A program made the translations under genes and the position numbers. Below are positions 54,795 to 60,298 of a stretch of 64,000 nucleotides of DNA, piece after piece; within the stretch, counting starts at the first letter, position 1; every line of letters begins with the position of its first letter. The notes below the pieces were generated by a model. The model made no database searches. It worked only from the letters and a program-made list of their open reading frames with translations, and was not told where the DNA came from. Source of the stretch: Bdellovibrio sp. GT3 (GTDB lineage: Bacteria; Bdellovibrionota; Bdellovibrionia; Bdellovibrionales; Bdellovibrionaceae); assembly GCF_037996765.1 (NCBI RefSeq), contig NZ_JBBNAD010000005.1, forward strand, positions 1,520,001 to 1,584,000. Direction: 5' to 3'.

Positions 54795-56174
54795 ATGCGT
54801 TTTGGAGCAGCCTTGGGCCTAAAATTGGTGACCTTGTCTATGGTCTTTACAGCACCTTCCTATGCACATACCGAAACTCAGTATCCGAAGATCGAAGAGA
54901 CCAATAAAATCGCGCACTCGCTTATGACGGTTTTAGGGCAGTGTCCAAACCGCTTGTGGCCGGATCTTAAGCTGCAAAGTATGGATATCCTGTTGATCAA
55001 TAAAGAGATGACCCGCCAGATTCTGGTGTCTCCTAAGAGTCAGACTATTTCGACAATACCGAATGAAGAACTGCCGCCTCACGTTTTTCAAACTTCCTAT
55101 TCGCGCATTCCTTATCAGGGGCGTGAGATTCTGTATGTGGACAGCCAATTTGGTGTTTTTAAGCCCGGTCTTCCCAGCAAAGCCCTTGAGTTGGCCATTC
55201 ATGAAGGTTTTCACATGGTCGATCAAAGATCGTGGGCTGAAGAAAAAGCTCGAGTGCGTGGGACTTGGGTTCCATTGTTGGTTCAGCCGCGCATTGCTCG
55301 TGCGATGTTGTACAAAAATTTAGTATTGGTTGCAAAATCAAAAGGGGATGTTCAGGTTCATCTACAGAATGCTCGTTATTGGTATGACGAATGGCTGAAA
55401 GCTGACCCTACAGAAAAAGCCATGTCAACCGATCAACGGGAAGGAACAGCTCGCTATGTTGAAGCTGTCGCTGAAGTCCTGAAAGCACGGGGATGTAGTG
55501 CAACCGAAGAGGAAATCTCGAAGGATATTATTAATTCGAGCCTGTTGAATGGTCACCATGCCGTTGGCTTCAGAGAACTTGATACTGAAGGTTACTTTGT
55601 TGGCGGCGTTGCGAGTTTCATTCTTCGCAGCCAGTATTCTGCGGTAGACTGGCAAAGTCGCGTTGCTAAAGGCGAAACTCCAGTCGAAATTCTTTTAAAA
55701 GACATCGCGCCATTGGCGGAGACTGCTGATTCCTCGTTGGTTGCCGGAATCAATAAAGAGCTGAAAAAATTAAATGATAGAATCAGTGAAGATCTTGCGC
55801 CAACCCGCAATTTGTTGAAGCAGGAAGATGTTGTATTTGTTTCTGTGCCAGCAGCGGCGCTGAAGACAAGCTTTTCACCCAAGGGTTTTTACCTGGGCCG
55901 TGATGAAGGGCTTCGTTACACTCCGCTGGCTAAAGAGTTAAAGTTTCAATTTCAAAATCAACAGAACAGTTTGTTGGCAGACCCCAATTCCGTCTTTATT
56001 CGCTTTCAAGCCGGCGTGCCTTGTGAGTTGGGTTGGACTTTCGCTTTGAAGTCTGCAGATGTTATTGCTCGGGCAGGTGTGTTTGAAATTAAATCTGAAC
56101 TTTTCAGTGGAAGAGTCGAGGGAGTTGTGATGAAAGACACTTCGAATCGCCCTTGGATTTGTGTGCAGCCGTAA
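54795..56174 (+). CDS. Exported HExxH putative zinc protease
   Basis: A 459-residue exported protein with a signal peptide (LKLVTLSMVFTAPSYA). The segment ALELAIHEGFHMVDQ near residue 130 contains HEGFH, a match to the HExxH zinc motif, and EGTARYVEAVAEVL about 80 residues later could supply the third ligand Glu, as in gluzincins. I know no named family for it. The ribosome binding site is AGGAGAG. It converges on the kinase-like gene, 20 bases away. Confidence 0.65.
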   Translation: MRFGAALGLKLVTLSMVFTAPSYAHTETQYPKIEETNKIAHSLMTVLGQCPNRLWPDLKLQSMDILLINKEMTRQILVSPKSQTISTIPNEELPPHVFQTSYSRIPYQGREILYVDSQFGVFKPGLPSKALELAIHEGFHMVDQRSWAEEKARVRGTWVPLLVQPRIARAMLYKNLVLVAKSKGDVQVHLQNARYWYDEWLKADPTEKAMSTDQREGTARYVEAVAEVLKARGCSATEEEISKDIINSSLLNGHHAVGFRELDTEGYFVGGVASFILRSQYSAVDWQSRVAKGETPVEILLKDIAPLAETADSSLVAGINKELKKLNDRISEDLAPTRNLLKQEDVVFVSVPAAALKTSFSPKGFYLGRDEGLRYTPLAKELKFQFQNQQNSLLADPNSVFIRFQAGVPCELGWTFALKSADVIARAGVFEIKSELFSGRVEGVVMKDTSNRPWICVQP

Positions 56175-56194: not shown

Positions 56195-58402
56195 CTAGTC
56201 GTAGGCTTCCATTGTTTTCAGCAATGGTGAGTTGTCGCCGGCAGGGTAGAGGCGGTCCTTGCCGATGCGTTTTTCCGCATCTTCAATATCTCTTAGTAGA
56301 ATCATCTGTCTTTTTTGCAGGGCTTCGATTTGTTTGTCAGTCAGATTGTCGCCCACGACTTTACGCCATTCTTCCGCCGTTGTTTGGCGCAGTTTTTCAA
56401 CGACCTTTTGATGCGGCATGAAGGCATTGATATTCATCTGCAGCTCTGAAGCGTCATCTTTCAAGTCTTTTAATTCCTGCTTAAGCGCGGCCTCCCGGCC
56501 TTTGCCCTGGGAAAGTTTGGCGGTGATCTCGGCCTGTTTTTTTAAGTTTTTTTCCAGTCGATCCACGCGATTGTTGAAATGCGCGAGGGGTTCCGTGGAT
56601 TTTCCGTTGTCAAAAGCAAGGCCGTGATCGATCGCCACAACTTTGCCATCTGATTTTTGCAGATAGTTTCGTCCGTGACGGTCGCCATTGGCGATAAGAT
56701 AGTCTAAGAAACCCAGTTCTGCAGGGTCGCCCTCGTAGTCTTCACTGTTTTTGAGTTTTTTAAGATCTTTCACGCGGTATTGGACGGCTCCTTCTCTGCC
56801 ATTCATTTCTTTTTTAACTGTGACAGGCACCGATTTTAAACCAAGGTACTTATCAACTTGATAGGCCGCCACTTCATTGTTTGCGGTATTTGAAACCCAC
56901 GAGTTGTCGGTCGCTTTCCAGACACCTTCCATGCCGTTATCGTACTTAACATACTGGGCTCCGAAGGTCCCTTCGCCCACGGTTTTTCTGGAGATAATGG
57001 TACCTTCAGATAATTGCTTCTCCAAGGCAGACATGTTGCTGGAAGTTTGAACTGAAGCCTTGCTGGCCTTGCCGGAAGCCGGCGTCGTTGTCGAGACCGA
57101 TTTCCAATTATTGTCAGCGGCATCAAGTAAAGCATTGCGCTTTTCGGTGGCGACCATGGTTTTAATATGCGTAGACAGTTCGTTCACCAAGCTTTGTGGC
57201 ATCGCGCCTAGTGCCAGAAGCGAAGCCGACAGCAGACAGTTGTCCTTTTCGACTTGCTCGGCTGTTGGCGCACTCACGCAGGCGTTGGCTGCCTTCAGTG
57301 TAGAGAGCTTTTCACTGAAGCAGGCTTGATGAGTCACTGCCGCCATACTTGCGAAGTCAGCACCGAGTGCGGCTGACTTTAATATCTTCATTCCGTTCAG
57401 CGAAACCATTCCTGTGGTCCGTGCCAACGTGGAGGTTTCAACTGCACGAGCGGTGGCGGCGCCCACTTTTCCTAGTACGGCAGCGCCTCCGCCCATCAAG
57501 AGTGAACCCACCATCACGCTGTTATTCAGGTTGTCGGCACCCTCGCCATAGCGGGCATTTGCATGACATGCCACTTCAGAGAACGCGGGATTGGATTTTA
57601 GAATTGCCGCACTTAACGCTGGATCGGCAAGGAGTTCGTTGCGGGCCGCACGGTCCAAGCCTTCGGCGCCTTTTTCTTTTAAAGCGCTCTTAAGCAGATC
57701 GCGATTTGAATCAAGAATCTGCTGGGTTGAGGAGTAAGCATTTTTCAATTCACTTTGCAGTTGTGAAACCGGTTTTTCATCCTTGCTGCTGGCATAGTCC
57801 TCAATGACTTTCTTCAGGCTTGGTGAACCGGATAAGGGAATCGCGCTTAAGATAGCCTGATAGGACTGACGGTAGCCGATCCATTCTTTGCAGGCTTGGT
57901 AGCTGGCACCCTTAGTGGTGCCTTTGGGGTATTGACCTTCCAAGGCTTCAAAACTTTGTGGGCACACGGGAGTGGAAAGTGTTGGATCGCTGACGATCTT
58001 TTTTCCAAGCTCCTGGGCTTTTTGTCTGGCGAATCTTGCCATCGTAAGTTTTGATTTTAAGTCACTGGCTGCAAAATTCTTGTCGAGGTCTTTGACTGCA
58101 GATTTTGCAAAGTCACTTGCACACTGCAGTTCGCGCCCTTGTTGCTCGGCCAGTAGCACGAAGTAGTGGTCTTCCTGGCTTTCAGAAATGTTTTGGCTGA
58201 TTTTACCAAGTTCTTGCGAGGATTTTTTTAGGGTATTATTTGCGGGCTCGCAGGCGGGGTCCACAGGTTTTGTGGAAACTGGTTCGCACTTTTTGCCAGT
58301 CAGTTTGTAGGCCTGTTCAGAAAGGGCTTCCAAAGGACCCGCTTGCACGGGTCCTGAAAAGATTGAAATCAGGCAAAATAAGAATGAAAAAGAGTTCCGC
58401 AT
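56195..58402 (-). CDS. Exported protein with an atypical kinase-like domain
   Basis: A 735-residue protein with a signal peptide (FLFCLISIFSGPVQAG), a cysteine-containing helical N-terminal half (about 25-290), a hydrophobic segment (about 290-315), and at about 465-600 a module with GEGTFGAQYV (a P-loop-like glycine-rich turn), GVWK (candidate ATP lysine), NEVAAYQVDKYLG (helix Glu), LIANGDRHGRNYL (catalytic Asp and Asn) and VVAIDHGLAF (metal Asp). These five elements in this order match the PI3/4-kinase or Fam20-like atypical kinase fold. A coiled-coil tail (about 605-700) follows. Substrate unknown. Confidence 0.8.
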   Translation of the reverse strand: MRNSFSFLFCLISIFSGPVQAGPLEALSEQAYKLTGKKCEPVSTKPVDPACEPANNTLKKSSQELGKISQNISESQEDHYFVLLAEQQGRELQCASDFAKSAVKDLDKNFAASDLKSKLTMARFARQKAQELGKKIVSDPTLSTPVCPQSFEALEGQYPKGTTKGASYQACKEWIGYRQSYQAILSAIPLSGSPSLKKVIEDYASSKDEKPVSQLQSELKNAYSSTQQILDSNRDLLKSALKEKGAEGLDRAARNELLADPALSAAILKSNPAFSEVACHANARYGEGADNLNNSVMVGSLLMGGGAAVLGKVGAATARAVETSTLARTTGMVSLNGMKILKSAALGADFASMAAVTHQACFSEKLSTLKAANACVSAPTAEQVEKDNCLLSASLLALGAMPQSLVNELSTHIKTMVATEKRNALLDAADNNWKSVSTTTPASGKASKASVQTSSNMSALEKQLSEGTIISRKTVGEGTFGAQYVKYDNGMEGVWKATDNSWVSNTANNEVAAYQVDKYLGLKSVPVTVKKEMNGREGAVQYRVKDLKKLKNSEDYEGDPAELGFLDYLIANGDRHGRNYLQKSDGKVVAIDHGLAFDNGKSTEPLAHFNNRVDRLEKNLKKQAEITAKLSQGKGREAALKQELKDLKDDASELQMNINAFMPHQKVVEKLRQTTAEEWRKVVGDNLTDKQIEALQKRQMILLRDIEDAEKRIGKDRLYPAGDNSPLLKTMEAYD

Positions 58403-58454: not shown

Positions 58455-60209
58455 TTATTTTGAATCATGTGAGTTGTGATAGCTGATATTTCCCTCGGGT
58501 TTGTCCGGATTTCTCGAGTAAATGCTTTTGCCTTCTTTGATGGTTTCCAGAACCTTGATGTTAATCAGTTGTGCCGGTGGGATCGTTAAGGGGTTCTCGG
58601 AAAGGATCGCGAAATCCGCCAGTTTCCCCACCTCCAACGATCCTTTCGAGCCTTCCTCAAAATGTTGGTAAGCTGACCAGAGGGTCTGGGACTTCAATGC
58701 GGTCAATGGATCCACTCGCTGCTCGGGACCCAGGACATAGTCACTACGGGTTGTGCGATTGACTGTGGATGCCAGGACGCGAATGGAATCTGGAAAAACC
58801 ACAGGGGCATCATGATGGGAGGTAAACTTCATATTTTCTGCCAGCACCCAACCTGTCGGTGAAATATTTTCGGCACGCTCTGGCCCCAACACCGAGGTGC
58901 GATGCCAGTCACCCCAGTAAAAGGTGTGCATCGGAAATAGGGACGGAAATATTTTAAGCTTTTTTAGATCAGCAATCTGATCCTTGCGTAAAGTTTGTCC
59001 ATGAATTAGTACCGGTCTGACATCGACACCGGGATATTTTTTTTCGGAGATTCTTATGGCAGTGATCAATTGATCAATCGCGCGATCACCATTCGCATGA
59101 GTGATGATCTGCCAATGGTTTCGTAGGGATTGTTCAAGTACTTCGAGCACCTTGGCGTCAGGAACCACTTCGTAACCTGAGTAGTTTTTAGGAAGGCCTT
59201 CGGGAACTTTATAATACGGCTTAGTGAGCCATGCCGTTTTTGCCTGTGGCGATCCATCCAAAGTCAGTTTGACACCGCCGATACGAAAGCGATTTTGATA
59301 CTTTGGTTTTTGTGTGGTGTCGTGAAAGTACGGGGCCTTCATCAGCTCCTCTGTTCCTGGAGTGAGAACGTCAGGATAAGAGACGATATCCACATCAAGT
59401 CTTTTGGATTTGGCTGCTGCGATGTTGGCGGCAATCTGTTCGGGAGAGCTTCGTCCGTCTTGAACGGTGGTGTAGCCATAACTTTTATATATTTTTATTC
59501 CGGCTTCCAGCATTTCTATTTTCTGGGACTCGGTCATCTTGGGAAAAAGTTTTACCAAGCTTAAAAAGAAAGCGTTTTCTTCCAGGACGCCATTGGGTTC
59601 AGAATTGGATTGGCGACGAATAACGCCTCCTGGGGGATTCGCAGAATTTTTATTCACGCCAGCCATTGCCAAGGCCTTGCTGTTTGCTACACCAAAGTGT
59701 CCTGACTGATGCATGATCACAATCGGTACTTCAGTTGAAACTTTGTCCAGATCCTGGCGTGTCGGGTGGCGCTGTTCTTTTAGCTGGGCATCGTCATAGC
59801 CCATACCCAATACCATCCCGTACTTTTTCGGGGTGGGGGAGGCTTTGATGTATTCAGTCAGAGCTGCCTGTAAATCAGGAATGGAAGTGATGGGGCCATC
59901 CGGAGGGGAAAGTAGATTTGCGCTGATCGCCTGTTGTCCCACCATGGATACGTGAGAGTGGGCATCAATAAAGCCGGGCAGCAGAGTTTTCCCTTTAAGG
60001 TCAATCAGGCGGGTGGCTGCCGATTTGGTTTTTAAAAGATCTTTCCTGGCACCCACCGCGGTGATCTTTCCATCACTGATGGCAATGGCTTCGGCCTGGG
60101 GAAGTTTGTCGTTCATAGTAAGAATCGGACCGCCGTACCAAATGGCATCCGGTGCTTTGGCGTTTGCTTGAAATCCCAGGATCAGAGTAATTGCTGCAAT
60201 CAATCTCAT
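58455..60209 (-). CDS. Exported amidohydrolase (YtcJ-like)
   Basis: A 584-residue enzyme of the amidohydrolase superfamily, YtcJ type. It has a signal peptide (LIAAITLILGFQANA), AIWYGGPILTMNDKLP, LLPGFIDAHSHV with the HxH metal ligands, THANGDRAIDQLITAI, VRPVLIHGQT and TSHHDAPVVFPDSIRVLA. The ATG at 60209 follows GAGG and is chosen over a GTG at 60218. Homologues hydrolyse cyclic amides or related compounds; the substrate is not known. It is a single gene. Confidence 0.9.
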   Translation of the reverse strand: MRLIAAITLILGFQANAKAPDAIWYGGPILTMNDKLPQAEAIAISDGKITAVGARKDLLKTKSAATRLIDLKGKTLLPGFIDAHSHVSMVGQQAISANLLSPPDGPITSIPDLQAALTEYIKASPTPKKYGMVLGMGYDDAQLKEQRHPTRQDLDKVSTEVPIVIMHQSGHFGVANSKALAMAGVNKNSANPPGGVIRRQSNSEPNGVLEENAFFLSLVKLFPKMTESQKIEMLEAGIKIYKSYGYTTVQDGRSSPEQIAANIAAAKSKRLDVDIVSYPDVLTPGTEELMKAPYFHDTTQKPKYQNRFRIGGVKLTLDGSPQAKTAWLTKPYYKVPEGLPKNYSGYEVVPDAKVLEVLEQSLRNHWQIITHANGDRAIDQLITAIRISEKKYPGVDVRPVLIHGQTLRKDQIADLKKLKIFPSLFPMHTFYWGDWHRTSVLGPERAENISPTGWVLAENMKFTSHHDAPVVFPDSIRVLASTVNRTTRSDYVLGPEQRVDPLTALKSQTLWSAYQHFEEGSKGSLEVGKLADFAILSENPLTIPPAQLINIKVLETIKEGKSIYSRNPDKPEGNISYHNSHDSK

Positions 60210-60298
60210 GGTTACCACCTCAGCTTATTCCCTCAAAGGCGGTACGGTTTGTAATCAGATTTAGTGATGTAGTTTTGCAAAAGTTGTTATAAGGGTGG

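Follow-up and report, generated by a model that had tools for sequence, protein, structure and literature searches.

A Bdellovibrionota protein family combining an exported-type N-terminal module with a Fam20/PI4K2-like kinase domain

The window analysed here, a stretch of 64,000 nucleotides from Bdellovibrio sp. GT3, carries on its minus strand an open reading frame (ORF) that starts with ATG at 58402, stops at 56195 and encodes 735 amino acids, in agreement with the coordinates and strand given in the initial annotation. Its features, each with the evidence on which it was placed, are as follows.

56195..58402, minus strand: entire ORF of 735 aa, an exported-type N-terminal module followed by a Fam20/PI4K2-like kinase (five full-length orthologues)
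58340..58402, minus strand: signal peptide-like segment, residues 1-21 (MRNSFSFLFCLISIFSGPVQA), ending V-Q-A (sequence; similar hydrophobic N-termini in orthologues)
57188..58339, minus strand: N-terminal module, residues 22-405, helical throughout by prediction, with nine Cys (alignments; low-confidence model)
57461..57517, minus strand: hydrophobic Gly/Ala-rich segment 1, residues 296-314 (VMVGSLLMGGGAAVLGKVG) (peak at about the same place in nearly all relatives)
57182..57238, minus strand: hydrophobic segment 2, residues 389-407 (CLLSASLLALGAMPQSLVN), its first residue being the invariant C389 (recurs in most relatives)
57038..57187, minus strand: variable linker, residues 406-455 (alignments; high dN between orthologues)
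56588..57037, minus strand: kinase core, residues 456-605 (PF00454, Fam20 and PI4K2 profile matches, dN/dS)
56960..56977, minus strand: glycine-rich turn G476-E-G-T-F-G481 (G478 and G481 invariant in orthologues)
56915..56917, minus strand: K496, putative ATP-binding Lys (K in 37/40 and R in 3/40 family members)
56873..56875, minus strand: E510, putative helix-C Glu (37/40 family members)
56666..56683, minus strand: catalytic loop D574-R-H-G-R-N579 (D574 in 38/40, N579 in 38/40)
56621..56629, minus strand: D592-H-G594, putative metal-binding motif at the DFG position (Asp in 34/37 aligned members)
56420..56587, minus strand: helical insertion with many charged residues, 606-661, initially described as a coiled coil (alignment; predicted helices; length variable in the family)
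56198..56419, minus strand: C-terminal block, residues 662-735, conserved across the kinase family as VVEKL..T..W....L...QI....R (alignments; the final part of the kinase profile aligns to this block)

Both the N-terminal and the kinase module occur in single copy in this 3.58 Mb genome. Upstream of the ORF, 52 bp away and on the same strand, lies a gene for an exported-looking Amidohydro_3 protein (58455-60218, minus strand; 5e-111); an operon with this amidohydrolase was ruled out, as the neighbour is not conserved at orthologous loci. On the other side a convergent gene (54795-56174, plus strand) encodes an exported-looking protein of 459 aa with an HEGFH motif, which has no Pfam family and is present in only 3 of the 24 genomes of the genus.

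The C-terminal kinase domain

The initial annotation had read the C-terminal half as an atypical kinase of the Fam20/PI4K2 type, and the profile searches bear this reading out. Residues 561-604 match the Pfam model PF00454 (PI3_PI4_kinase) with an E-value of 3.2e-9 and 37.5 bits, above the curated cut-off of 27.1 bits; the Fam20C (0.0039) and HipA_2 (0.014) models match the protein weakly and under their cut-offs. When a family profile built from 14 relatives was compared with solved structures, the best match was the C. elegans Fam20 protein H03A11.1 (3.8e-11, covering both lobes), followed by FAM20A and FAM20B (~1e-9) and PI4K2A/B (3.3e-9), with type III PI4K, PI3K and ATM/SMG1 ranking far below. 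Membership of this kinase family is well supported at the sequence level, and a Ser/Thr protein kinase is the most likely identity of the domain. Structure prediction from shallow alignments (the window, L121 and L122 sequences only) gave poor models: the AlphaFold model of the kinase-bearing protein reached a pLDDT of 55.6, and in a Foldseek search with it the top PDB matches were all Fam20, at an E-value of 8e-4 and a TM of only ~0.3.

All elements of the proposed catalytic layout are present in the order described before, namely G476-x-G478-x-x-G481, K496, E510, D574-R575-H576-x-x-N579 and D592-H593-G594. Except for G476, none of these positions varies between the window protein and its five full-length orthologues (34-61% identity), and among 40 family proteins the Lys, the Glu, both Asp and the Asn are retained at the frequencies listed above. 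The Lys and the two Asp, whose lack of conservation in homologues had been named beforehand as grounds for abandoning the kinase reading, are thus conserved in six orthologues and in most of the 40 relatives. A chance motif was ruled out by the Pfam score and the residue conservation. Between the close orthologues L026 and L027, dN/dS is 0.06 for the kinase core and 0.12 for the N-terminal module. Two relatives, L030:5856-7679 and L043:5470-6513, have lost the catalytic Asp as well as the metal-binding Asp; both are probably pseudokinases, and catalysis would therefore not be universal in the family.

The region beyond the core had been described as a coiled-coil tail. This holds for residues ~606-661, which are charged, helical and of variable length, but not for residues ~662-735, which align across the kinase family; judged by these alignments, much of the tail is part of the kinase domain.

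The N-terminal module and its C-terminal partners

What the initial annotation had missed is that the N-terminal half is, by sequence comparison with its relatives, a swappable module in its own right (N-module; residues 1-405 including the signal peptide, with a mature part of ~385 aa). Searches with five N-modules gave no Pfam family above cut-off, MafB-N/DUF1020 included, and no convincing match to the N-module was obtained in PDB, NCBIfam, PHROGs or PADLOC; viral relatives were not found either. A distant relationship of the N-module itself to kinases was ruled out by the lack of profile similarity. The low-confidence model of the N-module is all-helical. Positions invariant among eleven members include C39, C51, C94, C279, C361 and C389, and all nine Cys of the mature window protein fall within the N-module, with none in the kinase. 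This confinement of the Cys, together with the signal-peptide-like N-terminus, supports the export proposed earlier; the signal was judged by eye and by a home-made heuristic that scored 16/40 kinase-family proteins versus 110/448 other ORFs, a modest enrichment from a weakly discriminating test. The hydrophobic stretch reported for the N-terminal half is real but not single: there are two, at ~296-314 and ~389-407, and most N-module members have a pair of such Gly/Ala-rich segments in roughly corresponding positions.

The linker at residues 406-455 marks the junction beyond which aligned relatives differ in their C-terminal domain. Besides the kinase, found behind the N-module in the window protein, its five orthologues and L104 of another family, the partners are an ADP-ribosyltransferase exoenzyme domain (ADPrib_exo_Tox) in L076 (3.1e-24), a RamC_N domain in L033 (5.1e-20), mutually related HExxH metallopeptidase-like domains, read from the sequence, in L032, L039, L042 and L132 (the L032 C-terminus also gives a weak Tox-MPTase4 match), and C-termini with weak DUF5636 matches in a pair from L140; many further N-module proteins carry unnamed C-terminal domains. 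The N-modules of L032 and L033, paralogues encoded in a single genome, have 74.5% identity, and their C-termini show no significant similarity to each other, and the tandem N-module genes at L140:3398-8327 have 93% identity in the N-module versus 38% in the C-terminus. L080 and L133 have 37% of the N-module in common and are dissimilar in the rest, the L133 tail being short. A tree of 32 N-modules requires no fewer than two gains of the kinase and three of the metallopeptidase. Trees forcing one clade were rejected for the metallopeptidase (p 0.0004) and for the kinase (p 0.016), the latter being moderate evidence only, given several long branches and the fragmentary nature of L104. Conversely, many relatives, L029, L031, L034 and L036 among them, carry the kinase behind different N-termini that likewise look exported. 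The modularity of the family, with C-terminal domains exchanged behind a conserved N-module, is well supported by these comparisons.

A number of further arrangements were observed. L138:4503-9437 encodes an exported-looking protein of 1644 aa in which three copies of the kinase, some perhaps pseudokinases, precede an HExxH domain resembling the one at the C-terminus of L032, and in L134:5461-9810 and L135:2768-6238 repeats of ~80 aa (e.g. YLLSEKQFNALPDRTVLYSIDG) precede a C-terminal kinase. The C-terminus that follows the N-module in L131:4436-6691 looks kinase-like by eye (VAIKAV ... RVIDAG), and profile and PDB searches gave no support for it as a kinase. At ~3190 in L104, a fragmented assembly, the gene combining N-module and kinase is apparently frameshifted. 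Between N-module and effector, L033, L075, L079, L081 and L087 contain a block of ~75 aa (LGR.LS..E..A...AH..G...YT..QL..KA.IL..AG) that is pretoxin-like and has no Pfam family. Finally, one and the same 85-aa gene (MQKGFNSDIVVKG...) lies directly behind two different N-module genes, in L086 and L088.

Distribution and possible roles

By profile search, the N-module is present in 25/141 genomes of the order and 30/369 of the phylum. The full-length kinase protein occurs in 6/24 genomes of the genus, a patchy distribution from which we conclude that the gene is dispensable for predation as such; a scan of genome contigs with a strict pattern recovered only two orthologues. Four orthologues have a locus in common that differs from that of the window, and no flanking genes are common to the window locus and the orthologous loci. 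Neither beside the kinase orthologues nor downstream of the other N-module genes did we find a conserved small gene or immunity partner; what lies downstream of the kinase orthologues differs from locus to locus, e.g. thrS or a convergent gene. Carriage as phage or plasmid cargo was rejected, there being no phage match and a single actinobacterial plasmid match that covers the kinase segment only.

We favour, with somewhat more confidence than doubt, the interpretation that the 735-aa protein is an exported modular effector of a Bdellovibrionota family, probably prey-directed, with a Fam20/PI4K2-like kinase as its payload. The mechanism is inferred throughout, from the path of secretion and the targeting of prey to catalysis and its substrate. 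In it, the N-module would take the protein out of the predator via Sec, with an outer-membrane release step thereafter, and would probably aid docking on, or insertion into, the target membrane through its hydrophobic segments. The C-terminal domain would be the payload, with the kinase active where ATP exists, either inside prey or in the contents that leak from it. Kinases and ADP-ribosyltransferases require ATP or NAD, both of which are scarce extracellularly. This need speaks for delivery to a site where nucleotides are present, and it might also spare the predator an immunity protein. Delivery into prey is strengthened further because the N-module also carries other effector-type enzymes (ADP-ribosyltransferase, metallopeptidase-like and RamC_N). 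Weighing against the effector interpretation are the secretion systems named for B. bacteriovorus in a recent paper, which are type I, type II, Tat and Sec and no others (PMC12622784), together with the patchy distribution, the poor structure models, the modest enrichment of signal peptides, the lack of a conserved immunity gene and the pseudokinase relatives. More tentatively, and leaning slightly against it as a general account, we envisage an immunity-free polymorphic effector system in which the N-module would insert into the prey envelope and pass interchangeable enzymes (kinase, ADP-ribosyltransferase, RamC-type and metallopeptidase) into the prey cytosol, some of them being activated by nucleotide cofactors.

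Alternatively, the exported kinase could act within the predator's periplasm, at its cell surface or in the bdelloplast space. Its substrates there would be proteins, lipids or sugars outside the cytoplasm, phosphorylated with ATP leaked from dying prey, much as Fam20 kinases work in the secretory pathway. The nearest solved relatives are indeed secretory-pathway kinases, the Cys pattern is of the disulfide type, and many kinase relatives lack the N-module and consist of just a signal-like segment and the kinase. However, the N-module is common to an ADP-ribosyltransferase and a RamC_N domain, which are normally active near nucleotides and cytosolic proteins, and two conserved hydrophobic segments would be superfluous for a soluble periplasmic enzyme. 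On balance, we consider such a role unlikely, though by no means negligible. Quite improbable, in our view, is a classical polymorphic toxin directed against kin or competing bacteria and encoded in toxin and immunity pairs. The conserved N-terminus with a polymorphic C-terminus would fit such a toxin, as would the tandem duplicates with diverged C-termini and the short pretoxin-like block common to several members, but no conserved small gene lies downstream, where the kinase orthologues have dissimilar genes; moreover, in a periplasm devoid of ATP the kinase would not be active, and self-protection may therefore be unneeded.

The remaining alternative denies the domain its catalytic role: it would be a non-catalytic scaffold, or perform other chemistry (SelO- or SidJ-like), in a protein that is structural or regulatory. 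Fam20A exemplifies a Fam20 fold that acts as a pseudokinase partner, and the loss of catalytic residues in L030 and L043 points the same way. Yet all six orthologues retain the catalytic residues unchanged and the kinase core is under strong purifying selection, so that we regard a scaffold as very improbable. Should the interpretation as a prey-directed effector prove true, the common N-module would offer a handle for listing prey-directed effectors genome by genome and for asking whether predator proteins cross the inner membrane of the prey. Predatory bacteria would then join the known holders of Fam20-like exported kinases, and the case would point to self-protection through a missing cofactor rather than immunity proteins.

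Comparison with known kinases and polymorphic effectors

With Fam20A/B/C and C. elegans H03A11.1, the window kinase shares the character of an exported-type atypical kinase in which a D-R-H motif is followed by D-H-G. Unlike these proteins, it is shorter, has a charged helical insertion, is bacterial and is fused to a helical, delivery-type module. Type II phosphatidylinositol 4-kinases resemble it in the catalytic segment, which scores above the PF00454 cut-off, and in the PI4K2A/B profile match, but the window protein appears to be exported, and Gram-negative prey would not be expected to contain phosphoinositides. Residues 562-599 also match TIGR03843/SCO1664, an actinobacterial PI3/4-kinase-like family (2.2e-10); membership of TIGR03843 was ruled out, the score being 40.3 bits against a cut-off of 172.4. 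HipA and HipA_2 kinases belong to the same superfamily, to which the weak match mentioned above corresponds; unlike HipA, the window kinase is of the exported type. A HipA toxin-antitoxin system was ruled out, as HipA_2 falls below cut-off and no HipB is adjacent, the neighbours being the amidohydrolase and the convergent exported protein.

Polymorphic toxins with lineage-specific N-domains include MafB-N of Neisseria, Microscilla-N, and APD1/APD2 of Amoebophilus, as described in one survey (PMC3482391). The family described here resembles them in having a signal peptide, a lineage-specific conserved N-domain and polymorphic C-terminal effector domains, and it resembles the APD1/2 effectors in lacking the classical logic of toxin cassette and immunity. 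Unlike in those systems, its N-module has no Pfam family above cut-off and no lipobox, and its host lineage is predatory. The kinase toxin named in the available survey text is lantibiotic-synthetase-like rather than Fam20/PI4K2-like, and that text yielded no mention of Bdellovibrio (PMC3482391). Measured against the features of such systems, the family has a conserved N-terminal trafficking-type domain with differing C-terminal domains; it lacks an adjacent immunity gene, at the orthologues as well as at other N-module genes, and its evidence for secretion is the signal-peptide-like N-terminus only. The secreted factors of Bdellovibrio in one recent study were mostly proteases, lipases and other hydrolases (PMC11003981), and we found no description of such an effector family in Bdellovibrio in the open-access papers searched. 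What is known from other lineages is the polymorphic-effector layout; what is new here is a candidate lineage-specific effector module with a Fam20/PI4K2-like kinase as its putative payload.
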